NCBI GenBank assembly: GCA_034231615.1
Contig: CM067298.1
Location: 67,847,591 to 67,911,590 of the forward strand
Reading direction: 5' to 3'
Length of the DNA stretch: 64,000 nt
Origin: Meghimatium bilineatum
Lineage: Eukaryota > Mollusca > Gastropoda > Stylommatophora > Philomycidae
In this document: positions 606 to 61,300 of the stretch, one piece after another
How the letters are laid out: each line of letters begins with the position of its first letter
How positions within the stretch are numbered: position 1 is the first letter of the stretch
Notes under the pieces: generated by a model
The model's input: only the letters and a program-made list of their open reading frames with translations
Told to the model about the DNA's origin: nothing
Databases searched by the model: none
Position numbers and translations under genes: made by a program

Positions 606-3600
606 CTGAGTGAATAAGGAAAATTTATATCTCATAAACTACGGTCTACCAATTACCTTCACCACGCTGTCAGTGACTATAGTCAAAAGACACGCAATGT
701 TATTTCAGCAGCTACAATCAATTGTTTCTCTGCACCTCTATCAACAAGTACATCGCGATTGTAAACTAACATTATTCATCTGGGTAACAGAAAAAATGAA
801 AGTAGACATAATTAACTTAAGTTTCTGCTAGTGTTAAACTAATAGGCAAGCAAAATGAATTAAACAGGTTACTAAAACACTTACCTTGCCTATTAATAAA
901 AATATATAAAAAAGTATATATAAAAAAACATACAATAAAACTAAACAGGACAATTCTCCACTTATCGGCTCAAATTGAACCTTTTTCAAGAGACAAACAA
1001 CAGAAAACAACACAATAAAAAGCAAAATAGATGACTTTAGATTTCATCAAGCCCCGTCTCCATAACGCAGGGATGGCAACGCATCTAGTAAAAGAGAAAA
1101 TGCGTGCATTCATTATAAACAAAATATATTTGGTAATTTATAAAGTAAAATTTTTTCCACTTTCCAGTTTGTTTATAATGAATGCTATGAGCTGGGCAGT
1201 CTTATTCAAAAGAGAATTCTGTTGTTGTTACTTTTTTCACTCTTAAATCATGCTGTAGATAAAAATGTTGCCTCTCTCTGAGTAATCCACATGGATCTTC
1301 AGCAGGCTTCAAAGGAAGACATTATGGGGTGGGGTAGCCACTTCACACTCAACCATCTTAGTTACCTCATATAACATGCATGGAAGGTGACAATATTACT
1401 ATTTTTGTCTCACATCCCAGAACTCAGTAATACATGGATGAAAAGACTAGTTTAATATGTTTAAGAAACTTTGTGTTTAAACTATCTAGGATTATTTCAC
1501 ACATTACTAGTTCTACTTATAACATACTAATTTCTTACATTCTTTGGTCCAGTTTTGGTGGTAATTTGTGACTGTGAAGTTTCATCATCAGGTCTACTTA
1601 GACTATCAACAGGCATCGTTTGCTCTCTCAATAAGTTTTCAATTTCATCTTCATCTATCTGAAAGTTACAACAAACATGGTGTATTGACAAAACTATTGT
1701 AAGCCACAATTCTATCTTTTACAAATTTTTTTTATTACTTTATAAAATATTTTAAAGATCAGCACTGGATTAACTACTCTTGTCATATTTTGTACAGATA
1801 AAATCAGGACAGTTTGATGAGTTCCGCTTTTCCTTCTCAGTCACACTAACTGTTAACTGAATGGAGGAAATTATAGCTTGCCTCCATGAGGCAATTATAG
1901 CTTGCCTCCATGCAGTTAGGTGGGATGTGTTTAAATTACTTACCAAACACCACCTGTTCAATGTAGACACTACAATTTATGACATGTCTAAGGTTCAGTT
2001 GAGGAAATTTTGTGTGAAATGTAGCAAGGACTCAGCACTCATGGTGCAGAATATGTTTATTTAACCATAAAGTCACAGACACCATAATCATGCATAACCT
2101 TCAGCATTTGCTGGGGAAGACTGAGCAAGCCCATGCATGGGCTTGCTCAGATTGTAATTACATTAGTTTACGAACAATAACTCCATGTAGTTAAATAAGA
2201 TAGAATATAAGGTGTTGAATGGTATAAGATCACCAGTGAGGAACTCCTGCAAAAAGTTAAATGGTGCTAGAGATGGAAAAGACATACATTTAGAACAATG
2301 AAATGCATTGCAAGATGGGTAATGTTCTGGAACTCACAGGAAAAGAGGAAGATAAAGTAATACCTTGTAATATATTTAGACACAAAGATGCTTCTTCTAT
2401 CCAGTCCGATGAGTTATCCCTCTTGGGCAGCAGTTTCAAACACAAAGGAGGAGTATGACACAGAAAGAGTTGGAAGCAATAGTCAAAAATAGGATAAGAC
2501 AGAAGAGGTTTGTTGAGATATATGCTCTGAAGAGAAGTGAAAAGTATTTAGATAGTCAATATGTTCCCATGCAATTATAGACATCAGCCTTTTGATACCT
2601 TTAACTTAAAATTATGTTGAACATTAGCACTGAGTGTCCATGAATTTGTTATCTTTACAGTACCTAATAAGAATATCACTGTTCATATCGAAAATATTAC
2701 AAATATTTAGTGTATTTTCATTATCAGTTATGAAAAATGTCACCTGAGAGACAACAATATTTTTTAAGTGGAGGATAATTCCCCCCAAAAAATAGTGTGC
2801 ACTGACAGAAACTAGCTTTTACAATGAACTTGAGACACATTTCACTAACTAATGGAAGTGTAGTGGTTAAGGTAGTTTTTATTATTAGGTAAGCATACTG
2901 CAGAAGTTGCAAGCATCTGTTCTTATACTTTTTTAAATGTGATACATATCAAAGATTGTCTCTGCCGTCTGTGACCTCTTGGACCAGATTGATTTATTAC
3001 ATTGGCCAACACCAAATTTGCTGTCTATGGTCGTTTTTTTAAATACAGATTTAGGATAATTTTATTGTGCTGAATCCAAAAATCACATTGGTTTTTCTCA
3101 ATCAGGTCAGATTTTGTTATCTAGCACCACATGATGTTTTTCTATAGGTGGGTCATATTCCATGTCAAACCAATCAGTAAAACAACAATTGATTTCTACA
3201 CATTTTATCAAAAGTGTGTTTTTTTTCTATTTAAAAGGACAAATAATATAGAAAGCAAGTATTTTATTGTCACATGTATGGATATTTTCACGCCATATGT
3301 TGCAAAATTTCTTTATCTTGGAATATACACATTATGAAGATTTCACATGCTTAAATTTACTAGTATAAATAACCAAATGGCCAGAGGGTGTCCGACAAAG
3401 TGGATGGTGCCGCAGTAACCTAATGAACAAATAGTAATGCAAAATGATGTAAAAAGGTTACTAAAAAAGGTTTTAGTAACCTTTTTACATCATTTTGCAT
3501 TACTATTAAATTTACTAGTATTGCTAATTTTTTGGGGTATTTTTTTTAAGGTTTCAAGTTTGTTTGTTTGTTTTTCATTCACTCCATTGTAACCATCACG

Positions 3601-6600
3601 GATATCTGTGCGATTTCCGCCGGGAGCGTGATTACGTTGTGCCACCGTTATGCGCCTTGTAGGCCTAGCACATCCGATTTCGGCATGAAGGTTTCAAGTG
3701 ATTCAAATGGCTTCAACTAGAAGATCTTGCAATAATAAGCCTAACATCTTCTGCTACATCTGCGGTGAATACACCCTCGTTCCTAAAAGAAATCTAGTCA
3801 CAACTTTCATAAAGCAAGCTTACTATGCGTATTTTGGTATAAAACTTTGTGACCAGGATAAAGCTTGGCATCCTCACATGGTGTGCAAGTCATGCACTGA
3901 ATACCTGCATCAGTGGATTAAAGGCAAGAAGAGCAGTCTGAAATTTGGAATACCCATGGTTTGGAAGGAGCCCACAAACCATGTCTCTGACTGCTATATC
4001 TGCGCTATTGATGTGACTGGGATCAATAGAAAGAATCGAAATGTCCTCAAGTATCCTGATCTTGAATCAGCATGTCGTCCTGTAGCTCACTCTGATGAAA
4101 GCCCCGGACAAGGATGGTGATTGCTTCACTTACTTGTGCCGCGCTTTTCCAGGATTAACCATAGAGGTGGTTAAGGTGGCATTTTTGATCGTCCTCAATT
4201 TCGTCAGCTCATCAGAGATCCTGAGTTTGAGAAATCAATGAACAAATTGGAATTGGAAGCATGGAAGGCCTTTGTTCTGGTTGTGAAGAATTTTTTGGAA
4301 AACACCAAAGCCAGTAACTATGAAGAAGTTGTCAACAATATCCTGACTGCTTTCAAAAACCTTGGATGCAACATGAGCATAAATGTGCATTATTTATTCT
4401 CGCATATGGATAGGTTTCCCGAGAATCTTGGATCAATGAGTGACTAGCAGGGAGAGAGGTTTCACCAGGACATAAAAGAGATGGAGACTAGGTATCAAGG
4501 ACATTGGGATGCAGTAATGATGGCTGATTACTGAATTACTCTGAAGAGAGAAATCCCTGCTGCTGAGCGCTCAAGAAAGTCGAAGAAATTGAAGTTAATG
4601 TCTTGAATTTTGCTCAGATGACATAATTTACATGTCCTTACCTTTTTCAATGTCTTCTCTTCATTTATATAATTCCATGTTTGCAACATTTAATAAATAC
4701 ATTCTGTTAAATACTTTTTATGTGAGAAATGTAACACATAAATCAACTACTAATATTACCAAAATGTAGTTATAAATAGAAGGCTATAGTCAGAGAATAT
4801 AATTTAAAAAAATTAATTTATAAGAAAAACCTGACCTGATTGAGAAAAATGGATGCCATTTTTGGATTCAGTGGCATGAAATGCTCCTAATTCGGTTAAA
4901 AAATTATAGACAACTTTCAACTTCTTTTTTGTGTGTTAACCAGTGAATATTCCTTAGAATATTTGGTTATTATATTACACATTTGTTAATTCTGTGTGTT
5001 GTGAAGACTGAAATGGTGGCTAAGAAAAATATAACTGACTTGCCATAATGTCTAAGAGACCACCAAGAATAGTTGGTGTTACTCTATCTATTTATCTAGA
5101 TTTTTCAGTTCCCTATGGAACATAGAGCTGCAACTGTTGCTCTTCAATAATTTCTGTGCTGCCCTCTTCACTTGTGTGCAATAGGTTCCAATTCATTTGG
5201 TCTCTTCCTCTGTTGTTCTTCTCCAATGGGTCCTAAAGGTTAAAGTTTGATTGTAATATTTGCATCTTGTGGCTCCCGCACATCCAACACCAGCATGGAA
5301 GTAGGGGATTACTTTGATCAGATGTGTTAGCGAATCAATTCACAACTCTCCTTAGTTGCATCTTACAACATGCATAGGTCACAACTCTCCTTAGTTGCTT
5401 CTTACAACATGCATAGGTTACAACTCTCTTTAGTAGCTTATTACAACATACATAGGTCACAGTTTTCCTGTCATTGGTTCCATTTTGGGCCTGATAACAC
5501 ACAGGAGATATGATACAAAGTTTAAATAAAATAAGGACGTTTAAATTTTCATTGCATTCTTGCAACACAAGACAATATAAATGGTACTATACAAGGATTA
5601 GTGGCCAGGTTTCTATGGAACAAAAGGCTAACATAATTAAACTGAATGAACTTCCGTTAAAGACACATATACCGATGTATCCAACGTTCTATGCATTACG
5701 TGATGAGAGCCCCACTGATCACTAAATATGCGCGCAACACACTGAGTGGGGGTGGGGGGTGGATGGCCAATGCGTTGTGTGCAAAATGCTAGATTGTTAT
5801 CCAAAGTTACAATTTAATAAATTTCTGAGAAACTCTGTGCATTAGTGTATGAAATTAAAAAGTTGGTAGGCTGTCATGTGATTTTGCCACTGATCGCTGT
5901 ATTGAACCATATAAATGAATATATCTTCATTATTATAGAGGATATGTTATAGAAGGAACAACTTTTTACCTCATTTTCTCTAAAGCTGTCTTCACTTCTC
6001 TCAGCATTGTCTTCTTTATCATCAGGATCAGTTCTCTGCATACCTTCATCATCCTGAACAGTGTCAGTAGCCAGCACTGGCATGTCCAGACGGATTCTCT
6101 TCACACAACTCTGCCATGCAAATGGAAAGGGTAGTTTGGGTAATAACATAAAAACTCTGGGCTATGCATATGTTGATAAAGTGAGAGAAATAGTAGATTT
6201 CTATAGAACAGAAATAGACAAGAACAATATTTAACAATTCAAATAGTGGGGGGGGGGGGGGGGGAGAGGAGAGAGAGGAGAGAAAGGAAGAAGAGGAGGA
6301 GAAATTGACATACTTGTAAAAACAAAACATATTTGGATCACTCCTGATATCCACCTCTTGTGAGTGCAACTTTGGTGAGACATTCTCATTGCAACATCTC
6401 CTTTATCCACTCTGTCTCACCTATATAATATATGCTAGACATACTCAACAGCTTTACTCTTTTCACTTTCTGTGCCTAAGAAATCTCATGGGAGTATGTT
6501 GGCAGGATCAAATACCAGACACAGAAATTCTTTAAAAATCCCATATGCAAACCATCCATGCCATGTTGATTAGGTCCCAACTCGTTGGACTGACCATTTC

Positions 6601-9600
6601 ATCTGTATGACAGATAAGCATCTTCTAAAGAGATTGTTCTATAGGGAGCTGTGTGATGGTAAATTGTTCTATAGGGAGCTGTGTGATGGTAAACATTCAA
6701 GCGGAGGGTAGAAAAAGGGCTTCAGGATTACTTAAGGAACTCCCTCAATCACTGTAGCATTGATCCCATTCTTTGAGAGACTACAGCTCTTGATCACTCG
6801 GCTTGACACACTGAGCTCACAGCTGGCATCACAAAATTTGAAAAAGAAAGAACACTGTAGGAAATCTACAAGAGACAGAAATGAAAAGAAAGATCTGAAC
6901 ACGCTCTTACTCGGGACCTTCTACACTCATGCATGTACTGCAATAGACCTTTCCTGGCATGTATCAGACTCCTCTAGCATCTACGAACTCACAAACCTAA
7001 AACAAAATAGGCAAACACCAACATTCTGTTTTGTTTCTTCATCACTTTTCACCTCATATGTTCATTATTTTCATGTCCTGCTCATCTTCGCTTGCGAGGT
7101 AGGATCATCATCATCATATATAATCATACAATTTTATGTCATTAAACAAAATTTCCTCTGCAATCAACCTGCAATCAACCTGACATAGTTGACTTTAAAA
7201 AGCATACAAGTTAATATGAGTTTTGAACTTATTGATATATGACTGTAAAATCCAAAGAAAAATGATTTTTCAAAGGAAATAATTATGGTATTACTAGTGC
7301 ATTACCTAGCCCAGTAATGGAATCAAAGCATAGCAGCTCTGTGACCTGCCATGCATGTAAGAGGTGTCTGAGGAGGATTGTGAGTGGTTGGCTATTCTAT
7401 CTTCCTTGTCCTATTTATGTGTGCCTCCAAGCGTCATGGTGAGCTGAAATTTTCTTTATTTTGCTGTTATGCCGCTGCCATAGTGCAGCCTTGGCATTCT
7501 AGTATTTCTCTGATGTCATCTATCCATCTTCGTCTGGGTCTTCCTTTGTTTCTCTTTTCAGATAATCTTTTGTTGAAGTCTATCGATGGAATGCAATCTG
7601 GTTCCATTTTGATTAGGTGGTCAAACGATTTGATCTTTTGTGTATCTACATCTTCTTTGCATGATATTGTTTTCACCAGATTTCTTAGTGTCATTGTTTA
7701 TTCTATCTCTTTTTGTTACCCTTAGTGCTGTTCTCAGGCACTTCATTTTGCATCTAGTTTTTCTTCTAGTTTCTCTGTCAGGGTCCAAGTTTGGTATCAG
7801 TACCCATATTGCTATAGGTCAAAATTACACAAAAAGCTGAAGATAAATATGTCAGGGCAAAAATTGCTGATATCTCAGCCTAGGAGTAAACCATGACAAA
7901 GTGCATTCTGTTCTCCAGACTACATTATATAACCAGTAGGAGGGAGCTTGAGATTAAATATTGAAGAATTATATATAAAGAAACAAGTAACCTTGAGAAC
8001 AAGTACCGTAATAAGTAATGCACAATTTGCTATCTATGCCGCCAGTGGCTTGAGCCGATGACGAAATCTGTACTGAAGATAGCTACCTTCATTTTTTTAC
8101 TTGGACAAGTGAGTGTCGAGGAAAATAAAAGAGCAGACTTGCCAGCATTGCCATTGAGACTAGTAGCAGTTCAATGCACAGTGCAGATATTTTGAATGCA
8201 ATCATGGAGTTGGACCAGTTGGTAAGATATGGGGTGTATTTCTTCTGTATCTATGGCTAGAATGCAGGATCTGAGAGTGAAACATGGTACTGCAAGAAAC
8301 AAGTGATATATAGGAATCAAAAGGAGAAGTTATCAACCCACACAGAACTGGAACAGTCATGCTGAAGGACATACTGAATATGAGATCAGAGCACCTATGA
8401 ACTTGTCCAGAGTGCCATGATGATGACTAACCAACAAGTAAATTATTGAAGGGCTATTACTTTACCTGTACATTTTTCTTTGCACCTAATCTCTCTACCC
8501 TCTCCAATACTTCAGGAAATGTCATTTTTGGAAACAGACGATGACCCCAATGTTCCAAGGTTTTCATTATTGTCTTTAAGTCCTCTTTCTAAAAAACACA
8601 ATAATAGAAAAAAAACAGCAATTCAATTTTCAATACATGTCAATGAAAATAAAATTATACTAACCAAATTAAATAATAATGGAAGCAATATTAAGCATAC
8701 CGAAAGCTTTCAGTACGATCTGTATATTGGTTATATGAAACTTATTGTTGTACAGGTAGTTGTTTTTTATGACTCCTATTTTATATTCCTAAAACCCATA
8801 ACCTGTTAGGTCACTACTACATTAAATGCATCAAATCACTAAGTCCTCCAGTGAGTTCTATCTTCAGCAATGCGGATGAGAGTTGAAATAAAATCTGCAC
8901 CAGGCTCCCATCTGATTAATTGAAGATCTTAAACATTGACCGAATTGGTCAAATTTTACCAACTGAAATTCTTTTGTCTGATATAGAAAATATTTGCAAC
9001 CCAGGTGTACTCATTGGTGTTAAATCTCCACAATATATTTACTACAAATGCCAGCATATGCAGGTAGTAAATCCATTTGCAACCCTGAAGATTGGAAGTA
9101 CCTAAAGCTAATGATAACCACTAATATTGACACTGACCATTTTGGATCTTTACAAGCATGAACTAAGAGTCAGACACAACTAAGTAAATATCAATCCAAG
9201 CCATTTTATGGGGGCGCAGTAATAATGTAAACCTCCATCTAAATACAATATGTGATGCCCTATAATGTTATCTGGCCCTGGATGTAGCTGTCCTGCAGTT
9301 ATGTTTGGTGATGACTGCTACTAAGCTCTAGTTATAAAACCTGTTAGATTCTCACTTTGATGCAGAGATCCATCAATCCTCACAATATATAATCATGCTT
9401 GGTATTATTAGCTATCATAAAATTTTGCTTTTTTTATTTTAATCGCTAAATCTCCTGCCATGAATAGTTACCGGGTATAACAGTGAAAGCTTGGTCGGAC
9501 ACAACTCTTCTCCCATTAGTATGGTTGAAACTGTGGTAAAATCTACTATTTTCTTTTAAGCTGGTGTCATCAATGATGTGCCATGTTTGAATCTATGTCC

Positions 9601-12600
9601 ATGAAATTTTGTAAGTCCATGCATATTTAAGAGACAACTCAGGAGTTTTTCGGGATGCAGTTGGCTGTCCCATCCCACAGAGGGTCAAAGTGGTTTAAAG
9701 CTATGTTGAAATTGGATGTGTAAGGCTGAAAGGTGCAGATATTGCAAAAAATACTGTAAACCATGACATGCCATTCCATTCTCTAGACTACATCCTGCTA
9801 ATCTGCAGGAGTTTGAGAACAAATGCAGAAGAACCCATAGGGAAAGAAGAGAATTGGAAGACCAAGGAATACCTGGAGAAAAACAGTGGATGAAGAGACC
9901 AAATTAAGTGAAACCTTGTAGGAACAGATGAAGATGAAAGTACAGCACAGAACTCGTTTCCATCCGACAGTTGCATCCCTATGTTCACAGGGAACTGAAA
10001 GAAAATATAGATAGATTGTGCGGCTAGCTCACTATACTCACGATATGATTACAGATATATTACGAATGAAAAATGGCATCATATGGACACGAAATGTCTT
10101 TTCAAAAAATGAAAAATGTATGATTTTATAATATAAAAACACAAATTTGTAAGCATGCTTAACAGGAAAGTACCAAAAGCATCTTTGAATTGTGAAAGTA
10201 TGTAGAATTCAATCAAGTATGGTCTGTATATTGTTCCGCTGTATACATACCTCATGATTTTTGCCCTTCAGTACCACATTCTTAAAGACTTGTGGTAGGA
10301 TAGGGATGCCACGTTCACCAGTTAATCTGCAAAAATAAACAAATGCCAAAATATTTCAGAATAATATCACTATTTCCCTTCACATGGTGGACTTCTGCCA
10401 TGACTAGAGATATCAAGACAAATACTGCCACTGTTTTTTTAAATTCTCAATATTAAGTTCACATTCAAAAGTATAGTTGAGGGGGATTACCTCATGCAAA
10501 ATATTCAACAAAATTAACTCATGGTTCACAAAGCGAATATCCACATTGTACGATTGTATGTATTAGTGGTGCCTACAAATTCAAAGAATAGTTGAATAGA
10601 TATGTCCTATACAGGATAATAATAAGACCCATAGCCTATCAGGGCTGCAGATATACATTCGGACAAGTGTTGAAAATCATGTATGGATCTCCGCTGAAGA
10701 TGGATGTGTCGGGCCATTGACGCAAATAAAACGGCGACACAGCGCATTTCATTCTCTGGACTACATCCTGCTGGAGGTCTAGTAGTCCTGCTACAAGAGA
10801 GATCCAGCTAGAGTTTGAGAATGAACACTGAAGAAGAAATGTATGGATCATTCCTTGATGTTGTCAATCAAGGATTTTTATCACATCTTCTCCTTCTACC
10901 AACAACAGTTGCTTGTAAAATAGTTTTAGAAAGTGAGTCTTTCTCATTACATGCCTAAAAGAAACAAATTTATGCTGTTTCACCCCCGTCCCATAAACTT
11001 TGGGTAATAACATAAAAACTCCTGCAAACCAAGGTAGCTGCAGCTACCTTGTTGTGATTTGTAAGTTTGATTATTTGCTGCCAAAAAAATATATTTGTCT
11101 TATGCTCTAAATACCTGAATTTTAATAAACATCTGTTAGCACTTATATTCAAAAGCTTGAATTATTCTTTCCATGTCTGCATTCAAAGTCCAGCTCTCAT
11201 ATCCATACAAAAAAAAAGCTCTAGTATTCTCTCTATAGATTTATACTGTGAGTCAAAGGGCATGCGCCCATAGATCACTGATCTTTATTGATCTATGATT
11301 GTAAGACTGATCTTATTTTCCAAATCAGGCACATGTTCCTAAAATAACACCTAACTTATAAGGAAAATATGTCTGCACTGGTTTATGTGAATTAGTTTTA
11401 GTTTAGTGCACAGAAAAAAAACATACTCATGATATGTTTATGTAATTATTTTCTGTCAGTTCTGCAGCAAATTTTAAACACTAAGTCTGCTAATTCTAAT
11501 TATAACCCATCATAATAAATCAGACACACTATTGCAAATTGCTCAAATGAAATATAAATGCTGCTCATGTTACACTGTTTTTTATATATATATATACATT
11601 TTTATTAACCATATCCCCATTAGTCGCAGTGCATCGCTTCTACTGGTAGAAAACCAAACTTTTTTTTACTTGTTTCGCTGCGATCAATATTACATTTTTA
11701 GCATGCACTAGGTTAATCCCTGGCCATGACCTTTGCATAGGTCACAGTTCACGCTTTGTATATTTACATTGTGAAAATATTATGTCGGACTGATTTTTAT
11801 GAATGTCTCAAATTTGTGGAGATTTGACTCAATTTGTTTGCAATGATTGATATTGTTTGCATGTACACAGATGAAAGCCGTAGCTACAATAGAAATATTG
11901 CACGATGTTGGTAATTTTCATAAAAAATATAACGTGGAAAGTGACAGGGAAGTTCCTTGTTAGATAGACCTAATGTTTCTGACACCAACAAAAAAATTTG
12001 TGGTACTAATTGTGACATTGCGAATTGCGCTTGAGTAATATAGTTTTTCTAGTAGAAATGAGAATTTTGTAGAAAACGTAGGGCCTGCACATAATCTTGA
12101 TGAGATTGCTACACGTTATGAATACTTTAGCATCATTGTCGAAGAGGAGTATTATCAATTTGCAGCCGATCAAACATATTTGTATGTAACATAACACAAA
12201 GAACAAGCAAGGAAAGAAGACACGTACTGGACAACTGTAACTGCCAGTGAAATAAAACATTTTAAAAAATATTTATATTATGATGGGCCTTAGTATTCTG
12301 CTTGAGTATGGCATGTACTGGAGTACAGAATGCAGGTTCAACGTTTTGGGCATATCAACCTGATTAAGAATATATCTCAATATTTTCGTCTCAATATGAC
12401 TCCACTACTCAGCACCCCAAGGTAAAAAAGAAATGTTTCCACATTATGTTGAGTATGACAGTTTAAAAAAATAATATATATGTATTAAATTATCTTTGAT
12501 ATAGTTTCATGTGAGACTACTCATTTTCATGTTAATCTTCTAAGTCTGAATGTGATATGATGAACAGTTTGAAAGAAAATGAATTTTTAACACCACTCCC

Positions 12601-37620: not shown

Positions 37621-37679
37621 GACTAAAATGAACATCCCATATTTTAACTTCTGGACTGTATGTTGCTAGCTTCCAAAAG

Positions 37680-38695: not shown

Positions 38696-38699
38696 TTAG

Positions 38700-40638: not shown

Positions 40639-40639
40639 T

Positions 40640-41060
40640 ACGTCTATTCAACATGTATTAGAATTTACTGGAAAATTTCAAATATCGGCTATAGTAAACG
40701 GTGAATGACTATGTACCATAAAATTTTCTCATGATTAAGTTATAAGAAGTAACAGAGTGACAGAAACTGATATTAACAAATGTCACGAACATCAATTATA
40801 GACTCAAGAATAATTTGAATAACAGTATCTGCAGGTTCATGCTTATTCTCTCAATACTTGTTTCTTGTGTAAAATCTCGATTAAATGAAAATTTAAGTAT
40901 ATAACTAAAACTTCACATTAGAACTGCTCAATTAAGACTCACAAAAAAGGGAAAGAGTTACAGTTATATCTTCATTGTTTTCCATGTCAGATTCACTTTT
41001 TTGCAGTATTGCATGTTATCAATTATGTCACAGGTACCCAACATTTTTCTAGTCGTGATC
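40640..41060. other. Intergenic sequence, nothing recognised
   Basis: A short minus-strand acidic ORF near 41010 was considered as an extra HELQ exon and not accepted. Confidence 0.4.
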
Positions 41061-41061
41061 T

Positions 41062-41795: not shown

Positions 41796-41796
41796 C

Positions 41797-42530
41797 CCAT
41801 TTTATAGAAACAAAGTGTCCTGCATCCACATTTTATAGAAGCAAAGTGTCCTGCATCCACATTTTATAGAAGCAAAGTGTTCTGCATCCACATTTTATAG
41901 AAGCAAAGTGTCCTGCATCCACATTTTATAGAAGCAAAGTGTTCTGCATCCACATTTTATAGAAGCAAAGTGTTCTGCATCCACATTTTATAAAAGCAAA
42001 GTGTTCTGCATCCAGATTTTATAGAAGCAAAGTGTTCTGTATCCACATTTTATAGAAGCAAAGTGTTCTGCATCCAGATTTTATAGAAGCAAAGTGTTCT
42101 GTATCCACATTTTATAGAAGCAAAGTGTTCTGCATCCACATTTTATAGAAGCAAAGTGTTCTGCATCCAGATTTTATAGAAGCAAAGTGTTCTGCATCCA
42201 CATTTTATAGAAGCAAAGTGTTCTGCATCCACATTTTATAGAAGCAAAGTGTTCTGTATCCACATTTTATAGAAGCAAAGTGTTCTGCATCCACATTTTA
42301 TAGAAGCAAAGTGTTCTGCATCCACATTTTATAGAAGCAAAGTGTTCTGCATCCAGATTTTATAGAAGCAAAGTGTTCTGTATCTCCATTTTATAGAAGC
42401 AAAGTGTTCTGCATCCACATTTTATAGAAGCAAAGTGTTCTGCATCCACATTTTATAGAAGTAAAGTGTTCTGCATCCACATTTTATAGAAGTAAAGTGT
42501 TCTGCATCCACATTTTATAGAAGCAAAGTG
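41797..42530. repeat. 31-bp minisatellite, array 2 (about 24 copies)
   Basis: Unit ATTTTATAGAAGCAAAGTGT plus TCTGCATCCAC. Same repeat as array 1 with a few fixed differences (GCAAAG for GCGAAG, TTCTGCA for CCCACA). Substitutions such as ATCCAG and GTATCC are shared by scattered units. Confidence 0.95.
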
Positions 42531-42591
42531 ACCAGTGACCCCAATAGATATAAAAAGACTTTTTAATAGTGAAAAATAAAACAGATTACCG

Positions 42592-42870
42592 CTTGTGTGT
42601 TGCCGGGGCCCGAAAGGGAAGCAAAGAATAGCAACACTGTTTACCTTCCACGCATGTCATAAAAGACGACTAAGGAGGTTATGGGAGTTAGCTGTCCCAT
42701 CCCATATAGGGTCAGTGACCCAAAGCCATGCTGAAGTCGGATGTGTCAGGCAGAAAGGCGCAGATATTGCAGCAATGCTGTAAATCATGACACGACGCAT
42801 TCTGTTCTCCGGACTACATACTGCTAATCTGAGGGAGTTTGAGAACGAACGCAGAAGAGGAAGAAGAAGT
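42592..42870 (+). mobile_element. Class 1 SINE, full length
   Basis: From GCTTGTGTGTTGCCGGGGCC through GAAGTCGGATGTGTCAGG and CTCCGGACTACATACTGCTA to GAGAACGAACGCAGAAGAGG(AAG)n. Well preserved, but with only a weak ~5-bp TTACC flank repeat. Confidence 0.88.
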
Positions 42871-49300: not shown

Positions 49301-52300
49301 TGTGATGGTCAGAATAGAATGAGATTGGTAACCGGACACAATATACCCAAGACAAAATATCCTCAGATCTTTGATTGGGTTAACTACACAACATTAATAT
49401 TTAAAAAATGTGCTATGTTTTTCAAGAAGTTGATAGGTTCTGCTGGTTCAACAATTGTTATAATAACATCATCGGCACAGTAAACCTTTCATTTGTTGTT
49501 GGTTGACCAGTGGCAATCTGACTTCCCAACAGTGCAGATATGTTGTTGTTGCTGTAACTTCCGGACAAGTCTTGCTGCTGCTGTTGGATGAGATACATTC
49601 ACCATTGAATTAAATGCATTGTGCCAACCTTCTACATTGTTGTTGATTTTTGGCGCTTTATTCATGACACGATTGTGTTGACACCCAAAGGCGCACAGGA
49701 AATCGAGACTGCAAACAGCAACCACGACAGTCCAATGTAGAAATCTTTAATCGATGAGGATATCCAGGTATGAGAAACTGTAAATATTGGTGAGTTGTTT
49801 GAAAAAAGAGGGTGCCCAAAACAACAATGGTGCAGTGATATATCATCATCATCAGGTGCCATGCCGGGTGATGTAGGCGGTCATAGCTCTCCACAGCTCT
49901 CTGTCCACAGTATTATGTATCAAAGTCGTTGTTGTTTCTTTGCCGTGCCAGGTTGTCAAACTGTCTAATATTTTCTCACGTTGTTGCCCTCTGTCTCTGG
50001 TGCCTTCAATCTTGCCTGTTGTGATTATGTTCTCTAAACCTGCCTGTCTCATGAAGTGGCCAAAAAAAAAAGATTGCCTTTTTCTTATATTGTTGATTAA
50101 GGTCCGTTCCGCATTTAACTCTTAACGCCTCTACATTAGTTTTTCTGGCAGTCCATGGTATTCTCAGCATTCTTCTGTAGAACCACATCTCTGTTGCCTC
50201 CAATCTCCCACTTTCCAGTTTGTTTATTGTCCAAGACTTATTGTCCACCCATATGTTAGTATAGGGGTTATATAGCACTGCAGAACTCTCTTTCTCACCT
50301 CTAATGACAAGGTCATATTACACAGTATATTTTTCATTTTTCTGAATGTTTATTTTTGCCTGTCCTATTCTGCATCTTATTTCTGTTGAACTTCTTCCAT
50401 CTGCTGTTATAATTGTACCTAGATATTTGAATTGGTGGACCTGTTTTAATACTATATCATTCACTATGATCTTGCAAGGTGTGTTATTTTCTTTCTTTGA
50501 AATAATCATTACTTCTGTATATTCAGTGATATATAAGATTGCTTAAAAATGTCACTGGCTGCGGCAGGTCAATGCGCCCAGAATCGTGGAGTGTTCAGAG
50601 AATCCATAAGGAAGACCACATTCTGGAAAGAATATGTCACATAATGATGATATTTGGTCTTGGGGATATTTTGTCTGGGAATATTTTGTCCATGAAACCA
50701 TGAGGTCAGTATCAAGCACAGTTGTTTCATCACTCTTTAACATAAATAATAGACACACACCTGACACAAAATATGTTTTTACCTATGACAATACAGAAAA
50801 AAGTAAGAGCTTACTTGATATATACCTGACCCAATAAAAAGATATATTTACCTTACAGAAGTGAAAGACACTGGATGCAAAAGCTACAGACTGACTCAAT
50901 AGATTCTGTACAAATCCTCTTGGCTGAACAAATTTATCTGCCACTTCCCACACAGATTTTTGGTTCCACAAATTCCACAGCATTAGAGTCAAGTAGAATC
51001 GATTGACTATCATTTCACATACTTTCTACAGATAATAAAATGTGATTTTTACAGAATTAGATGTCAAAAGTACACATTTTACATATATAAAAATATTAAG
51101 CCCAATAACTCATCAAGATAATAGGGGTGCCGTATTTTACATCAGGGTAAAGTACAGTCAAATACCATTGGTCTGGGCCAACAAAATATTTATGTAATAA
51201 TTGAAACTTGCTATATACAATATAAACAATGGAATAAATATACTTGGGGATCTTGAAACGTTTTGTTAAATAGTGAAATATATTATTATTAGAAATATGG
51301 TTTCTACTGTAATATGCAAGGAAATTGGTATGGTGGAAGGGGAAGAAAGACAAGAAGAGGACATGGCTGGATAATATCAAGGATGTTAGATTTGTAAATT
51401 GCAGAAGACGGATGTGTTGGGCCATTGGTGGAAATAAAACAGCAACACATCGCATTTCCATTCTCAGGACTACTTTCGGCTGGAAATCTTGTAGGACCAT
51501 TGTCCTGTTACAAGAAAAATCCAGCAGAAGTTTGAGAATGAACGCTGAAGAAGAAGCTTTATAAAACAGCCATGAAACTTCATAAACTCAGGTGGTATAG
51601 GCACATGATAACATTCCTCAGTAACAAATGATGTTGTTTAAGGTATGGTGGAGGGGGAAAAAAGACAAGGAGGCCAGAAGAGGACATGACTGGATAATGT
51701 CAAGGACTTGACAGGGTGTAAAGTTTTCAAGCTCTTCAGGATGATACATATGCATGGAGATCTTTTTGCATCAAATGTCAGGTTTAATTATTATTTTGAA
51801 TATACAAATTTATTTTTCACCTCCTTAAAAGTTCAATGATTTCAACACTTAATATATAATGATAATGCCAATTAAATCATCACACATGAAAAATAACTGG
51901 TGACTTAACAACACACTAAGTGAGACTAAAATAGTAGGTTAAAATTAAGTAACACAAAGGAAATTGAAGATGTTTATTCAATGAAGAACTAGATTATTAA
52001 TCACTAAATCGGCAGTAAGTTGTTGGGCTCGAAAAGGGAGCAAAGAATAGTCACACTGTGGCCTGCATGTATGTGCTAGAGATGATTAAGGAGGTTTCAG
52101 GGAGGAGTTGGTTGTCTCCAAAGGTCAATAGTGATCAAAAAACAATACTGAAGTCGTATATCTCAGGCAGAAAGGCATAGACTGCATCAAAGATGTAAAC
52201 CATGCCACATCACATTTCATTCATTGGATTACATTCTATTAAGCAGCAGAAATTTGAGAATGATCAAAGAAGAAATAACACTCAATTAAAGAGGTAAAAG

Positions 52301-55300
52301 ATCACAGTTTTCACCTTCTTAATGGAACGACCTGCAGCTTTTATCCCAATATAACTCTCTGATACACCTATAAGACTTGCTGCCTTCAACTCAGATTCTG
52401 TTAACTTGAAGATCTAGAGAAAACAATAAAATAGAAAAAATAATCCAAGCTGAAAAGAAATAAATTTGTAAGGAATTCTATCAGATCTTACAACTTCAGA
52501 TCTTCAACAGTTTATATGCTTTTGCTGAGTTGGTGCATTTATATTTTAGTTGAATGGTTCCTTTATAAGTACTTTGGATTGATTTACTTGTTGATTCCTA
52601 ACATTTTTTTCCCTAGTATTTCAGCCATTTGGTAACCATATGTAACCATAATGATGCATTCATAAGTTTATTGTAATGTTACTTTGTAATTCATACTCTT
52701 TTTAATAAGATATTTATCCATGTGTTGTAGAGACCCACTAGGGAAGCAAAGAATAGCAACACTCTGACCAGGCATTGCCGGTCATAAGAAGTGACTAAGG
52801 GAGTTTGAAATGGGGCTGTCCCCGCCGAATATGGATGTGTCAGGCCATTGGCGCAAATAAAACGACGGCACAATGCATTCCCATTCTCTGGACTACATCC
52901 TGCTGGAAATCTAGTAGGACAATGGTCCTGCTACAAGAGAGATCCAGCGGGTGTTTGAGAATGAACGCTGAAGAAGAAGAAATGGGGCTGTCCAATCTTA
53001 TTGTAGTCATGCTGAAGATAGATATGTTAAACAGAAAGGCGAAGATATTGCACTCAAGCTGTAAACTATGGAACATCACATTCCTTTCTCTGAACTAAAT
53101 TATGCCAACCTGCAGGAGTTTGAGAATGATGCACAGAAGAAATAATAAAAAGACCAGGAACCAGTCTTATCATATGAAATAGAAGCACCAGAAAATTTTG
53201 GAAGGAAGCTTTGGAGCACTTCCATTTGGGAAAACTCTGACTACTATGGGGGGACTTTTTCTGGATTTCTTATTTAAGCTGCATAACTTTGTTATCCAAG
53301 TCTCATTTTAAGGTCATAATGTGCTCTGGTAGTGGAACATTCTCTGATCCATCTTCCATATATTGACTACCCATATTCTGATGAGCCGCAACCTATTAAT
53401 ATCCCTTTTCTACCACAGCCAAGTGAACAATATCTGTTCGCATTTTAGGTTGTACTGATAAACCGCAGATTTACAGAAGTAAATCTGACCACTGCTGCAA
53501 ATAAGAGCTCTAGAAGTTGCTCTGCAGACAGAAAAAAAACTATTAAAAGTTTACAAAAACAAGATGTGCTGGTCTGGCACTATTGACATATTATTTTAAG
53601 TTGTAGCACAACATACTTATACTGAACTAGCTAAAAAAAATTAAATTTTTTATTTCATTATATAACTTGTAACAGAAGTATGACAGCCAGCTAACCACTA
53701 TCTTTCCACCACTGCAGTTCTTCTGGAAGTGAACTTTCTCTAGACGATCTTTTTTCTTGACATATAAATACGAGGCGTGTTCAAATGAAAACGGGACTTG
53801 TGGATTTATTTAAAAAGTATCATACGCAATTTAATATTTTCAACGGAATTGAACAAAGCAACCACTTGTGAATAAGAATGCACCTGGGTTCATCAGAAAA
53901 AATCTCCGTATGCATTTAGGCAAGCATCCCACTGTTTAGGTAGACGTCGAATGCCGTCCGAGAAAAAGTTGCGTGGCTGTTCTCTGAACCATGTGGTCAC
54001 CGCTGTCTGCGTCGCTGTTGAATCGCTGTCCCTTTAGTGCTTTCTTCAACGGTCCGAACAAATGGAAATCACACGGAGATAAATCGGGACTATAGGCTGG
54101 GTGATGAAGAACTTCCCAATTCTTCTTTGCCAATGTTTCCTGCACAATTTTTGCGACGTGCGGACGAGCGTTGTCGTGGAGAAGAATCACACCTTGAGAA
54201 AGTCTGCCTGGTCGCTTAGCCTTGATGGCCTTATGCAGCTTGTCTAAAGTGTCTTTATAATGGGCGGCATTGATGTTGACACCAGGTTCCTTAAAATCAG
54301 TCAACAAAAGCCCTTCATGGTCAAAAAATGCAGTCACCATAACCTTCCCAGCAGAAACCTGTGTCTTGAATTTTTTGGGTTTTGGTGAACCTGGATGTTT
54401 CCATTGCATGCTGTCAATTTTGCTGCTCGGTTCATAGTGGTGGCACCACGATTCATCACCTGCCACAATGCTCAACAGAAATGCATCACCCTCTGCCCTG
54501 TAACGCATCAGGTGGTTCAAACTCCACCCCATCCGTTCTTCCTTATGGTGGTCAGTCAACATCCGTGGGACCCACTGTGAACACACCTTCCGATAGTTCA
54601 ATTTCTTCCGAACAACCATGTGGGCTGTCCCAATTGACATATGGAATTCTTCTGCAAGCGAACGAATGCTCCGACGACGGTCAGTCAGTACTGCTTTATC
54701 AAGCACGGCTATGGCTTCTTCTGTTGCAACAATATGTGCCTGACCTGGCCGTGCAAGATCTGCCGTTAACTCACGTCCGTCTTTAAACATACGCACCCAC
54801 TCCATCACTCTGGTCCTCGACAAACATTTGTCACCATATGCTGCCTTCATTCTCCAATGAATGTCTACTGCTTGACATCCTTCAAATGAAAGAAACTGGA
54901 TCACAGCACGCTGATTCACTTTGGACGGGTTCGGAATCACACCCGCCATATTGTTAACAGTCTTCTGCAGCACATATGCATGCTGGGAAGATGAACACGT
55001 GACCGTATGTAAATTATTGGATACTCATTACTAGTGCAAAATGTCATCAATATCAGTGCGCTCTATCACGCGTGGTGTAACAAGTCCCGTTTTCATTTGA
55101 ACACGCCTCGTATCTACATTTCTTCCCTGGGGTCCATATCAAATAAATTCTTGTGACATTATCTAGCTCTCTTATGAGGATGCAGTTAATCCAAGTTATA
55201 ATGTCACAACTGACTGCTTATCTTTCTGATTACTTCTATTTAGTAGCTGATAGTGATTTTGTTAGGTCAGAATATTATGTGTATCTTTTATATCTACTAC

Positions 55301-58300
55301 AATTATTGCTACAAATTATCACATTAGACATATCATTTATGTGGTTATACTGTAGCAACTAAAGAATAATTTACCAACACAAATTATTCTTATTTTTAAA
55401 ATGACAAAATCGTATTATAATAATGTTGCAACACATTCAAAATATTAGTCAATAATTTAATGAAAATGTGTTTCCAGAGCCTGAAAGGAAAGCAAAAATT
55501 AGCAACACTATCACCTGCCATATATGTTATAAGAACCAACTATTTGGGAGTGGAGTTGGTTGTTCCATTTAATATGTCAGTGATCCAAAAGCCATACTGA
55601 AGTCAGGAAAAAAAATAGATATTGTAGTCAAGCTATAAACCATGGGGCAATGCATTCCATTCTTCGGGCTCCGTACTGCTAAGTAGCAGAAAATTGAGAA
55701 TGAATGCAAAGACACAGAGAAGAAGAATAGTGTTGCACATAGACAATAAATACCCACCTGGTTAAGATAGATTCTCCAGTCAATAGTAACGACCACATCA
55801 TACGGAGTCACCAGGTAGAGAAGGTGTAAGTGAGTAGCCAGATTGAGAGACTCTTGAGCTGTTGTCAAGTCCTTGTATAGTTGACTACTGCGGATGTAGT
55901 CAACTGAACCTGCACATTTATAATATTAATAATATGTTTTTAGACAATATATGATCAATTAAAATTACATCTATAGAAATGTTCAAGGTAATGTCAGTAC
56001 CTGAGATACTATTAGCCAATAATAATAATTATAAAATTAATAACCAGTCCGGGTCATAGGTGTGCTGTAAAGTAGATATAAAAACAAAAAGATATGATCC
56101 ATGTTATGCTGACACTCTAATGGTAGCATTTCTGTAGGCAGAATTTTACGCTGTGGCACCAGTCTCCTCTCCGAAATTTTCTTTATTTGCAAGCAGAAAT
56201 AACACAACAGTCATCCCACTCTATTTTACTGGAAGTTACTGAATACAGCCAGCTGAACGAAAAGGCAATGTTTTCTACTTCATAAGAGACAACTAAGGAG
56301 GGTTCAGTGTGATGTTTACTATCCCATCCTGTAGAAAACCAAATGACCCAAAAATGTCATACTGAAATTGGATGTATCAGACTGAAAGGTATATATATAT
56401 ATATATACCAGCAAAATTGTCAACCAAGACACAACATAATCTGTTATTTGGACTATACCATTCCTAATTGGGTGGAATTTTGAGAATTAATTCAGAAGAA
56501 CATATAATATGTCCTTAAGTTATATAGAAAAAATAGTAATGCTGTAGTAAGAAAATAATGTTTAACATTTTGGACATATAGCAAACCTTTAAATGTAGCT
56601 TGTCCTAAGGAAGAAACTTGTAAACTATCTTGAGAGTCTGAATCATCGAGGTCACCACTTCTGCTGTTAATAACTAACTTTTGGTCTATGAGATATTGAA
56701 GAGATTCTTTAGTTGCCATGGTTACATCAATGCCCAAAGTAGATGATTGAATCTTCAGTAAAGACGTGTTCATCAACTCAAATGCAGACTTGGCTGATGT
56801 CACTATCTGTAAAAAGAAATATATTTAAAAAAAAAAATATTTTCAAAGCTTTGAAATGTTCACAGGTGTAAAGAATTAACTTCATTGTACATAGGTTTTT
56901 CTAATAATGACATGCAAGTTACCTGTCAGAGTATTACTCAAGAGTACCGTTTTTTAATAAGATGGAAAATGTACAAATGCATAGTGTTGAACTTAGAACA
57001 GGTTGATCTTAAATATAAATTAGTTTCATTTTAAAGAGTTATAATAACTCAATTTATTTTGAAAATAGGAAGACATATGGACAAATATATAATAGATAAA
57101 GAATATATAAAAAGAAGGCAGACTGCCATGTCTTGGTCATATGAAATGTCAACTATGAGATTACTACACAATATAATTAAGGGTGTGTGAAAAAAAAACA
57201 CTCTAGAAACAACTAAATCACACATGCCTGCAGAAATATTGTGGTTCAGACTTTTTGTTGTCCGCAGAAGACAGATGTATTGGACATTGGTGCAAATAAA
57301 ACTGCAACACAACCACAACACATTTTCATTCTCTGGACTACATTCTGCTGGAAATATAATAGAACCATTGTCTGCTACAAGAAAGATCCAGCAGGAGTTT
57401 GAGAATGAACGCTGAAGAAGAAGACATTTGTAGAACTAAAGTAAGCTGTAGAGAACATGGGACTGTGAAATGGTATGAATAGATTACTAACACCAGTCTC
57501 TGACTGACTAATCTGATGATGATACTAGTAATCAAGTAACAATGATAAAATATATGAGGAACTTTTTCACTAGTCACTATTTTTTTCTTTTTCTCAATCG
57601 TAGTTTAATATGTCTACACACCAAGTCTGGTTTTCTTAATAAATGCTGTTGCATTTGAAAGCTCCTCTGTGCTCCAAAAAGCTTTCTGGGGATATCTATC
57701 TCTGTGGACTAGTGCTCCTCCCGTAACTAGTTTAGTGTAATGCAGTCTTGCAGGATATGATCCATGAAGTGTGATGTTTGCCCACAAGAACACTGAGGTG
57801 ATGGAATCAGTCTTAGTCTATTTAAGTGGCTGTTTAGTTTGTTGTGTCCTGCCCTGATAAGAAGATTATAACATGCTAAGCTCTGTCAAGATAATGATAG
57901 TTGTCTTTTGGGTGGTTGATTTTCCTAATAGCTTTGATGAGGGTCCTCTTTTCCTGATAGGTGATTTTTTTGTCTTTTTATTCCTGTATTGCTCCATCTT
58001 TGGTCAGTATATCTATCTCTTCATTTCCTGGAATTCCATAGTGGGATGGTATCCACTGTAGTACTATCCTTCTTTGGATGCTCACTTCTCATATGGTTTC
58101 CTTCAGGTTTGACAGTTGACTGTCAAGGGCTTGTAGGACAGATTGTAGTGAGAAACACTACCTGTTGATATTGGCTTGTGTATTTAATTATTTCTGCAGC
58201 AATGCTTAGTGCCTATATTTAGTGCTTGTACTTCTGCAGAGTAGTTAAAGCAAAAGATTCCAGTTGGTGAACATGTGGATTCATTTTTTTTTTTTTTATA

Positions 58301-61300
58301 TTTTATGTAAACTACAGCACCTCCATTCTTCACTGCACTAGTTGCTGATCCATCAGTATATACTTGTTTCCACACTTCTCTGGGGTACATATCTTCAATA
58401 ATATTGTATACTGTTGTTTTCTTTTGGAGAGTATTCAGTTCTATCATAGTGTAGTTGTTTATGACAATTCTGATAGTGACATTTTGATATTGCACCCACC
58501 CACGGAACTGGAAAAAGTGTTGGTGTTATTTCTTTTGTTATGTTTGGTATTTCTTCCTTATTTTCTCTGTGTAGTTTTTTGGATCGGTGAATAAAACTGC
58601 TTTTCAGACTTTCACTGAATCTTGTCTTCATTGTGTGTGCAGGCATATTCTTGTAATTTTCTGCATGGATCATGGTCTTAGTGTTCCGTCTGTATGGTAA
58701 GGGGGTGGTGCCTTTAATTTTTACAATGCATTTATAGAAGAGGTCTTGATGTCCTCTGTGATAAGGTAGAGTGCTTGATTTTGTACCTTGTCCAGAACTT
58801 GTAGATGGGAATTGACTCTGACATCCATGCTGTTGATCATATTCTAGTACTGATCTAATTGCACCTGTATATACCTTCTTTAAAGTTGCCTTAAAGGGCT
58901 TTAATCAATCTACACTTTCAGGTGGTGTGTTTACTAATCAAAGTTGATAATCCGCACATCAGCTGCAGTGGAAGATGATCAGCATGCCATGTTTTCTCAA
59001 TTTTGCTCTTCATGAGGATTTAGGCATCAAGAATATTATCCTCCCAGCCAATCCTTGAGAGTATCTGATGTTCGTCCGTCGTGATCGACAATGACCAAAA
59101 ACTCAACCATAATAATAATAACAGTAAATAATAAAAGTTAATAGTGCGTTTTTAAATGACTAGCAAGTCCAATGTGCGCACAAAATGTTCTTTTACAGAA
59201 TTGACAACAATAGAGGGTATCTATGTGAGGTTGAGATGTATTTTCTTTTCTACGTGTCCGCTTCTGTCTTGCAGTATCTTGTCTGAATTCTTCCACCACT
59301 AGTGCTCCTGTTCTAATGCTGTAACGCCATGCTGTTCTATCCTGAGCGAGGCTCTCCCAAGCGCCTACGTCAATGTTAAGATGTTTCAAGGATGACTTGA
59401 GCGTGTCTTTGAAGTGCTTTTTCTGTCCACCAGCTTTTCGAAATCCTGCCTTGAGTGCTCCATAATATATTTGTTTTGGCAAACGCGAGTTCTCCATACG
59501 CACTAGATGGCCTGCCCAGCGTGCTTGTGCCGTCATAAGTATTGTGTGGATGCTTATTGAGGTTGATTTTCCCAAGACCTCGTAGTCTGATACTTTGTCC
59601 CACCAATGGATGTTTAGTAATTTACGTAGGCAGGTAAGATGGAAATGATTTAATTTTCTTGCATGTCTAGCATACACTGTCCATGTTTCGCAGGCGTATA
59701 GTAGGGTTTGTATAACAGCAGCATGATATACTTGTAGTTTGGTGGTTGTTCTTACACCTCTTCTGTCCCATACATTGTTGCGTAATCTGCCAAATACAGC
59801 ACTAGCTTTTGCCAGTCTATTGTTAATTTCCACATCAATCTTGACATCGCGCGAGAGAGTGCTTCCAAGGTAAGTAAAATTGTCGACTACCTGCAGTTTT
59901 CCTGATTGATGATGATGGAAGTAGTAGTATGTTGGCTATTTGATGTTGCTTGGTGCATGACTTCTGTTTTTTTGGTGTTAATAGTGAGACCAAAGTTGTT
60001 TAACCTGAGAGTATCTAAAGAGTATCTAAAGGATGAAGAATTAGATGCGATGTTTTCTAAAGGGTCAAAGTGACCCAAAGCCATGTTGAAGGGGATGTGT
60101 CAGGCCAAAAGGCACAGATATCGCAGCAATGCTGTAAACCACGAGACAACACATTCTGTTCTCTGGACCACATCCTGTGAATCTGCAGAAGTTTGAGAAT
60201 GAACGTAGAAGACAAGATGTGGGCCTCAAAATTCCTCAGCTGATTGAAACATCTTTTCATCTGAGTCAAAATCTACCTTAAAAGATAATAAGTAAATAAA
60301 GATCAATTATTAACACAAAAATGTAGACATTCATGGTATTTCTAAGAATATACATCACCTTCAGTCCTATACTCGACAGTAACAATGACGTAATGCCTTT
60401 CATGCCATCATATGCCAGACTACTATGACAAAGATCCTTTGGTCCTGCTAGAAGGTCTTTCACCTTGTTACACAAAGAATAATACATAGTTATTGCAAAT
60501 ATACAGTGAAACCGGTTGATAAGAAATAAAAAAATGCCTTACTAACAGGCAAACATTTAACTATTTTAAAGATGAAATGAATGTCACAATTGTTCATAAA
60601 TTACATTGATATGCACAACTTCTAGGTCACCTTCTTAATTGAAGCAAAAATAGTCTTACATGTTTTACATGTCCAAGACCGCCATCATGAGTGAATGTAG
60701 ACTGCACAGCACTATCAATACAGAAATAGTACTGCATAGAATCCAGACCAATGTGGCATAATAGAAATAAAGAGGTTGACCTCCTAGTAAGAAATTTCAG
60801 TGATGATTCATAATCTAAAACTATGAAAAGCAGAAGTTAAGAAACTGTGGAAGCAGACATACTGCTGAAGCTACCACTAAATGTTATACAAAGAACAAAG
60901 GACTATGAACAGGACACAACAGAGAAATCATATGTACAGGAATGTTATATTTGGCTAGACAGATTTGTGGACTGAGCCAATAAACTCCCAACACATCTTT
61001 CGTGCATGTCATGCTTATGGAAAAACAAAGAAAGAAAATATATATTTTAGAGGCTATTTCTGCACACGAGATTGGGTTCATGAATAACCTGAAACAAATT
61101 TTACATTTCAATTTAAGCGATTGGTTTAGTGATCTGAGCACTGATAGAATACTGAAGATTTAACAATTAGAATTAAAGTTCTTTGAAAAATTGAAAGATT
61201 TGTTGATTGATTAGGTTGATTATCGTCTTTCCACACCATACAAGCCCATAAGTGTTCACATCTCTGCTTCAATAAATATCTAAGGACGTAGTAACTGATG

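Follow-up and report, generated by a model that had tools for sequence, protein, structure and literature searches.

Three abundant classes of SINE-like retroposons in Meghimatium bilineatum are built on one structured RNA unit, which also ends a 1.33-kb element with a ribozyme-like head

Background

In the central-domain superfamilies of short interspersed nuclear elements (SINEs), one conserved segment occurs with varied heads and tails and at very high copy number; the part of PMC8010984 available to us names V, CORE, Deu, Nin, Ceph, Inv, Pln, Snail and Meta as such superfamilies, and the corresponding part of PMC8967140 names tRNA-Core and tRNA-Deu SINEs in octopus repeat annotations without printing their sequences. 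Non-autonomous elements headed by a ribozyme have also been reported: in the accessible text of PMC4035085, NARTc and SIDER of trypanosomatids and R2 SIDE are non-coding retroposons with target duplications and, at the 5' terminus, a fold like that of the hepatitis delta virus (HDV) ribozyme. For the silkmoth R2 element, the accessible text of PMC3774820 gives J1/2 loops of 216-498 nucleotides (nt) and cleavage at the element's 5' junction. Here we describe three classes of SINE-like elements in a 64,000-nt stretch of DNA from Meghimatium bilineatum (assembly GCA_034231615.1, contig CM067298.1, positions 67,847,591 to 67,911,590 of the forward strand; hereafter the window), first noticed in a sequence-only reading as families around a core of about 60 nt. 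We find that they are a real, abundant group of retroposons, driven by long interspersed nuclear elements (LINEs) and built on one structured RNA unit: class 2 consists of nothing but the unit, class 1 has a head of about 140 nt in front of it, and in class 3 it occurs either by itself or after a 1.2-kb head.

Like the central-domain superfamilies, these elements combine one conserved segment with different heads and tails at very high copy number, and to this extent the likeness drawn by the sequence-only reading stands. It fails in the position of the segment, which is 5'-terminal in class 2 and in the short form of class 3, lies near the 3' end of the 1.33-kb long form of class 3, and is central only in class 1, where the head in front of it has no tRNA match instead of being of tRNA type. 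The elements differ further in that no tRNA head was found and in having stems conserved up to the tail; the comparison is one of architecture, not of sequence. The origin and role of SINE central domains are an old question, and the fact that one structured unit stands by itself, follows a short head and closes a longer, apparently ribozyme-headed element at its 3' end makes it testable in one genome.

The long form of class 3 resembles NARTc, SIDER and R2 SIDE in being a non-coding retroposon with target duplications and an apparent HDV-like fold at its 5' terminus, and resembles some R2 ribozymes, as far as the accessible text of PMC3774820 goes, in having a J1/2 longer than that of HDV. 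Unlike NARTc, SIDER and R2 SIDE, it carries 107-bp tandem repeats and ends in the class 3 unit. Metazoan retrozymes are likewise small, ribozyme-bearing, non-autonomous retroposons of animals, but in the part of PMC7761336 available to us their motifs are hammerheads, and a link to Penelope-like elements and RNA circles is described. Neither the window nor the class copies tested give a hammerhead match in Rfam. SVA of hominids is a non-coding retroposon of composite structure, in which tandem repeats form the middle and the end is SINE-like; a LINE moves it in trans. The long form of class 3 has the same composite build with an unrelated sequence, an HDV-like head and an (AAAC)n tail instead of poly(A). 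Should that head prove active, the long form would be a composite retroposon of the SVA kind, defining its own 5' end.

One folded unit in three abundant classes

The core pattern of the sequence-only reading, allowed up to three mismatches, matches 13 places in the window, where 0.15 are expected and none of 100 shuffles reaches 13. In the host genome (1.61 Gb in 32 contigs) it has 25,902 exact matches and its reverse has none; a longer core pattern with a free loop has 33,635 exact matches, again against 0 for the reversed-pattern control, with ATT, GAAA and TACAA as the dominant loop types among the first 100 matches listed. Class 3 is represented by 8,221 exact 26-base cores genome-wide. 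Pairwise alignment of the class consensus sequences gave scores of 60.5 for classes 1 and 2, 30 for classes 1 and 3 and 24.5 for classes 2 and 3, while the highest of 1000 shuffles reached 29, 22.5 and 21.5, respectively. Every pair thus exceeds all 1000 shuffles, which, with the genome-wide matches, bears out the proposal of three classes with one common core.

To estimate abundance we used a 264-kb sample made up of the window and, from each of twenty contigs, a 10-kb stretch at the same fixed coordinate; throughout, L-number names (e.g. L076) denote genomic loci used in the analysis. A profile search returned 69 non-overlapping core places at E ≤ 10, of which the 59 at E ≤ 0.01 were classified, and all 59 could be assigned (class 1, 32; class 2, 23; class 3, 4), leaving none unassigned. 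The 200 kb outside the window hold 41 core-bearing copies (21, 18 and 2 of classes 1, 2 and 3), which would scale to roughly 330,000 per genome. Beyond this genome, a longer core pattern is present in seven bacterial contigs and in 0 viral contigs, and a 17-mer occurs in 26 IMG/VR stretches, whose best alignment to a consensus reaches E = 0.004. At E ≤ 10, the antisense open reading frame (ORF) of a class 1 copy gives no related protein.

The similarity among the classes is not limited to the core of about 60 nt, as had been supposed, since a 3' stem and a motif before the tail are also common to them. The homologous unit measures 118-153 nt and consists, in order, of a 5' GAARWCGGA, a 7-bp stem S1 with the small hairpin, CACAACG, a 6-7-bp stem S3 whose interior differs by class, AACG and the tail. 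The hairpin keeps its stem and changes its loop as the sequence-only reading described, and the tails are likewise as given there: (GAA)n in classes 1 and 2 and (AAAC)n in class 3.

We examined both stems in an alignment of 32 units (9 of class 1, 13 of class 2 and 10 of class 3) chosen as the more complete copies. Some rows were adjusted by hand before counting: three letters in those of classes 2 and 3 were shifted over a long gap, and a one-column gap in those of class 3 was slid. S1 pairs TGTGYYR with YGRCACA and has standard pairs in 205 of 219 cells, against 123 of 223 (55%) in the best of six slid versions. One of its pairs is mostly T-A in classes 1 and 2 and C-G in all ten class 3 rows, and a second is mostly A-T in classes 1 and 3 and mostly G-C in class 2. 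S3 is formed by CGTTCTC/GAGAACG in class 1, CATTCTC/GAGAATG in class 2 and CGCTCC/GGAGCG in class 3, with standard pairs in 199 of 209 cells against 96 of 189 (51%) in the best of six slid versions. Covarying pairs are therefore present: two in S1 and three in S3 are changed on both sides between classes. We regard this evidence for a conserved fold as good but not overwhelming, because only three class sequences underlie it. A closing stem TGCTG/CAGCA, CGCCG/CGGCG, TGCCG/TGGCA is not claimed, its 3' strands standing in non-homologous columns of the alignment.

Class 1 and class 2 are distinct elements

The copies named by the sequence-only reading are all present in the window, and their ends have been refined. 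Those of classes 1 and 2, with further ones, are as follows.

28323-28606 (+): class 1, full length; head of about 140 nt and shared unit, tail (GAA)n
42590-42868 (+): class 1, full length
46107-46384 (-): class 1, full length, 12-nt target-site duplication ATGGCCCTTGGC
37006-37275 (-): class 1, full length, older
9616-9833 (+): class 1, 5'-truncated
60058-60213 (+): class 1, 5'-truncated
52005-52274 (+): class 1, old
55467-55726 (+): class 1, old
52718-52818 (+): class 1, 5' half, interrupted by the class 2 copy at 52819-52980
52989-53141 (+): class 1, 3' half of the copy that starts at 52718; the match itself runs from 53005
56280-56500 (+): class 1, old
7813-7942 (+): class 1 fragment
38572-38697 (-): class 1 fragment
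44793-44839 (+): class 1, last 47 nt only
10688-10838 (+): class 2, start at the core, 11-nt target-site duplication ATGTATGGATC
51400-51558 (+): class 2, without clear target-site duplication
52819-52980 (+): class 2, nested in a class 1 copy, 15-nt target-site duplication GAAATGGGGCTGTCC
57261-57424 (+): class 2, without clear target-site duplication
47899-48055 (+): class 2, old, absent from the sequence-only reading

Class 1 does have the additional 5' head that had been described for it, at about 140 nt. Its 5' ends lie at consensus position 1-9 in 15 of 32 copies and are scattered from 17 to 194 in the other 17, two of them (139 and 143) adjoining the start of the core. Class 2 copies begin at position 1-10 of their consensus in 22 of 25 cases, and with a start so fixed at the core they are not truncated class 1. 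One class 2 copy (52819-52980) splits a class 1 copy, which resumes at about 52989, and is flanked by its own 15-nt target duplication; class 2 therefore moves by itself. The two classes share the core, a CACAACGCATT stretch, a GGACTACATCCTGCT stretch and the 3' end, and between shared stretches class 2 has about 35-40 nt more than class 1. The fixed start, this 3' interior of its own and the nested copy together rule out class 2 as a truncated class 1, in agreement with the sequence-only reading. That reading had also let class 3 begin at the core, which does not hold for class 3 as such (see below), and had credited the named copies with perfect target-site duplications, which we find at 52819 (15 nt), 10688 (11 nt) and 3557 (12 nt) but not at 51400 (4 nt) or 57261 (5 nt).

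Exact target-site duplications of at least 9 nt flank 8 of 20 class 2 copies, 3 of 13 class 1 copies, 6 of 7 long class 3 copies and 3 of 3 short ones, against 0-2% in a swapped-flank control. For this tally and that of the starts, the shorter stretches L055, L056, L057, L059, L061, L063-L066 and L074 were replaced by longer ones and the near-duplicates L071 and L072 were dropped. Discrete copies are thus flanked by target duplications, as in retroposons mobilised by LINEs, and duplications and tails together mark LINE-type insertion.

Class 1 head fragments without a recognisable core after them lie at 1323-1434 (-) and 37658-37754 (+). A relic at 5256-5414 (-), which holds tandem repeats of the class 1 head block and a core-like CATGCTGGTGTTGGATGTG, is possibly an older fourth class.

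Class 3 has a long and a short form

The class 3 features of the window, apart from the head of the long element, are these.

39310-40640 (+): class 3 long element with ribozyme-like head, tandem repeats, class 3 unit and (AAAC)n; 9-nt target-site duplication ACGTCTATT
39841-40157 (+): tandem repeats of about 107 bp within the long element
40510-40639 (+): class 3 unit, the 3' end of the long element
3557-3687 (-): class 3 short unit, 12-nt target-site duplication ACTTGAAACCTT

The window copy at 40510 does not start at the core; a 1.33-kb element begins at 39310, and the copy makes up its final 130 nt. Among the first 100 core matches listed, 34 places are of class 3 type, and of the 33 examined 26 extend upstream into the long element and 7 are short (17 and 3 in the first 20, 9 and 4 in 13 more). 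Two of the 33, one long and one short, are near-identical duplicates, which leaves 25 long and 6 short copies, to which the window copy at 3557 adds a short one. The 5' end GGGGTGC directly follows the target duplication in the window copy and in 8 of 10 copies taken with more flank, the exceptions being L077, which is diverged and has a 5' end resembling this one, and L083, which is without the first 70 nt or so. Nine copies of the long element diverge by 1.7-3.5% from their consensus, which contains 2.7 units of a 107-bp tandem repeat and no stop-free stretch of more than 167 codons; the longest ORF of the window copy matches no Pfam family.

The seven distinct short copies (window 3557, L069, L073, L086, L090, L091 and L092) begin with CATGCC or ATGCC, their starts differing by no more than one base; in six of the seven an exact target duplication of 12-14 nt ends at that start. 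For L091 the script chose another, more distant repeat; by eye, AACAATATAT flanks the same boundary. In a poorly resolved tree of 32 class 3 units, which left out L070 (it runs into N), L071 and L072, the seven short copies need 7 label changes against 5.9 in shuffles and so are unclustered. Random truncation does not explain the fixed start. Its recurrence across the class 3 family suggests, on the strength of these boundaries, an internal initiation or RNA processing site at the edge of the core.

At L079, two long class 3 elements face each other head to head, in part, at positions 1-941 and 1586-2521; these parts are 95.6% alike, and both carry the ribozyme-like 5' end.

A predicted HDV-like fold where the long element begins

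39310-39448 (+): predicted HDV-like ribozyme fold, 5'-terminal in the long element (Rfam drz-agam-1, 24.2 bits; descriptor scans)

Judged by its predicted fold, the RNA at the beginning of the long class 3 element appears to be self-cutting. The Rfam family drz-agam-1 matches nt 46-136 of the element and places P1 elsewhere; its score falls short of the curated cut-off of 37 bits, with E = 1.6 in the window and 0.035 for the element alone. Read by hand, P1 has 7 bp and begins at element nt 1, the first seven bases, GGGGTGC, pairing with GCACCCT directly after P3; the proposed cleavage site then has a G-U pair, and J1/2 measures about 50 nt. P2 pairs ATCCCAAATG with CATTTGGGGAT with one bulged G, P3 is ACC/GGT with the loop TCCACGC, P1.1 is GG and P4 is CAGAA/TTCTG; inspection of the Rfam alignment gives J4/2, with the predicted catalytic C, as CCAAAT. 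The helices, the L3 loop and the joining region of an HDV ribozyme can thus all be placed.

A descriptor built from P1, P3, L3 and GG finds eight sites in 628 kb of strand, all eight at nt 1 of a long element, and a relaxed descriptor, applied to a subset of loci, finds the same eight. We stress that the descriptor was written after the sequence had been seen, so that these counts speak for specificity and not for independent discovery.

3' ends shared with resident LINEs

24059-24484 (-): C-terminal ORF of an RNase-H-type LINE, with GAACGCAGAAGAAGAAG just downstream on the same strand, as at the class 1 end
47199-47835 (+): 3' end of an RNase-H LINE, tail GAACGATGAAGAAGAAG

Pfam recognises RNase H in the ORF at 47199-47795; the ORF at 24059-24484 has no Pfam hit and was placed by its similarity to the former. 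The ends of RNase-H LINEs, two in the window and others in the sample, carry a GAACG-like motif and a (GAA)n tail, like classes 1 and 2. We compared class tails with four RNase-H and five RTE-type LINE ends, picked from those seen. With each of the four RNase-H ends, none of 500 shuffles aligned as well as the class 1 tail, and when the GAA repeats were removed 0, 0, 6 and 10 of 500 did. The class 1 tail, which is common to class 2, is thus a 3' end shared with a resident LINE, and from this similarity the helper LINE of classes 1 and 2 is probably of RNase-H type. The class 3 tail is matched as highly by 81-289 of 500 shuffles with the five RTE-type ends, which is chance level and speaks against an RTE-type LINE as its partner, and by 12-276 of 500 with the four RNase-H ends. 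An autonomous parent with the 5' end of the long class 3 element was not found.

The window also contains, at 15087-17821 (+), a LINE with endonuclease and reverse transcriptase ORFs in overlapping frames, which we take to be of RTE type. The best named relatives of its endonuclease ORF are molluscan (Babylonia, 63%; Elysia, 62%), and unnamed ones reach 71%.

Origin of the classes

As in the sequence-only reading, we find no tRNA, 5S or 7SL head on these elements, nor one from a small nuclear RNA (snRNA), either with Rfam, run on the window and on one copy per class at E ≤ 10, or with ARAGORN. Since no head derived from an RNA polymerase III (pol III) transcript is found and the scores for strict A and B boxes differ from the shuffle mean by no more than about 1, we call the elements SINE-like and not SINEs in the strict sense.

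Taken as a whole, the observations are best explained by three classes of related non-autonomous retroposons that are copied in trans by LINE reverse transcriptase, and we hold this with considerable confidence. The 3' half of the unit (S3, AACG and the tail) would then serve as the end recognised by the reverse transcriptase, and the 5' half (S1 and the hairpin) may be an RNA domain kept for RNA output or capture. In the long class 3 element, the 5'-terminal HDV-like ribozyme would trim the element out of read-through transcripts and so fix its 5' end, and the short unit would arise repeatedly, either from the RNA of the long element or by an internal start, at the core boundary. One could go further and propose that the core acts as an RNA module by which the 5' end of short retroposons is set, that the unit is time and again either freed from the RNA of the ribozyme-headed 1.33-kb element or started inside it, and that new SINE-like families thus come from the tail of a long element and not from tRNA genes; this wider proposal we consider unlikely as it stands.

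Several observations pull the other way. The five compensatory pairs, carried by three class sequences, amount to few independent events, and letters in the class 2 and 3 rows were shifted by hand before pairs were counted. An exact 9-nt target-site duplication is absent from 10 of 13 full-length class 1 copies and from 12 of 20 class 2 copies. The box scores leave the promoter unexplained, and a partner LINE for class 3 was not found among the nine LINE ends tested. As to the ribozyme, the Rfam score is below its cut-off, P1 was assigned by hand outside the Rfam match, changes in the L3 loop region keep two of nine intact 5' ends (L076 and L084) from matching the descriptor, and a genome search with RF01787 gave no match at E ≤ 0.001, control genomes being silent too. 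The tree of short versus long class 3 units is poorly resolved at 22 of 23 inner branches.

If short class 3 copies, and by extension class 2, were simply 5' truncations left by an early stop of reverse transcription, the core would set no 5' end at all. The long element does contain the entire short unit, 5'-truncated copies of classes 1 and 3 exist, including the two class 1 copies that start beside the core, and the short class 3 copies do not cluster in the tree. Against this, all seven short copies start within one base whereas class 1 truncations are scattered, an upstream hairpin (GGGTAGCCCACCC) ends about 12 nt before the short class 3 start and not at it, and the 3' interior of class 2 is absent from class 1, so that we judge truncation distinctly unlikely. 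The exact and recurrent boundary inside a longer RNA, in a unit that is structured, would also fit a core that is itself a self-cleaving or RNase-cut RNA domain and fixes where class 2 and short class 3 begin; truncated twister ribozymes at RTE 5' ends are mentioned, as work in preparation, in the part of PMC7761336 available to us. No Rfam ribozyme family matches around the core in three copies at E ≤ 10, which leads us to reject an HDV or twister ribozyme there, and the L3 and J4/2 signatures of HDV are absent from the core by inspection; a cut core seems to us very improbable.

A better case can be made for the short unit being an ordinary pol III SINE whose promoter is too degenerate to recognise, with class 1 and the long element as later fusions. 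The class 1, class 2 and short class 3 consensus sequences contain no TTTT run and the long element contains one; a loose A-box, TRGYNNARNNGG, fits classes 1 and 3 at 11 of 12 positions, twice each, in a comparison without shuffle control; and the copy number, 41 in 200 kb, is high. The strict box scores and the failure to match tRNA, 5S, 7SL or snRNA speak against it, and we rate it as possible without expecting it. It is quite possible, if still short of what we would assume, that the families have already been described, as a SINE superfamily of Ceph, Nin or Snail type or as an entry in a repeat library such as Repbase or Dfam. Named central-domain superfamilies exist, as listed in the part of PMC8010984 cited above, and Nin-SINE is known in limpets according to the accessible text of PMC11121367. 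A Nin-type abalone repeat can be aligned with about 26 nt of the class 1 head (CCATGCNTGTCGTAAGAGGCGACTAA), which is a lead and not a test; its 3' part aligns weakly, 19 of 1000 shuffles scoring as high. Strings from the family sequences match no paper text, though papers rarely print sequences in their text.

Other elements in the window

A separate, tRNA-headed SINE-like repeat begins at 21610-21682 (+), where Rfam scores a tRNA at 28.6 bits (cut-off 29), and runs to about 21870; relatives of it occur in L038, L039, L040, L046 and L052. A Mariner-type transposase ORF, stop-free over 362 codons and matching Pfam Transposase_1 and DDE_3, lies at 53939-55024 (-). The stop-free stretch at 3707-4120 (+) has 137 relatives at E ≤ 0.001, with identities of up to 86% among the 120 listed, and no Pfam domain, and so represents a widespread unnamed protein. 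Close by, the sequence at 3430-3507 forms a near-perfect inverted repeat with the appearance of a small hairpin transposon; Rfam scores it as MIR7696 at 44 bits, where the cut-off is 83. Minisatellites occupy about 41700-42590, in 31-bp units, and about 62440-63320, in 44-bp units, the former abutting the class 1 copy at 42590.

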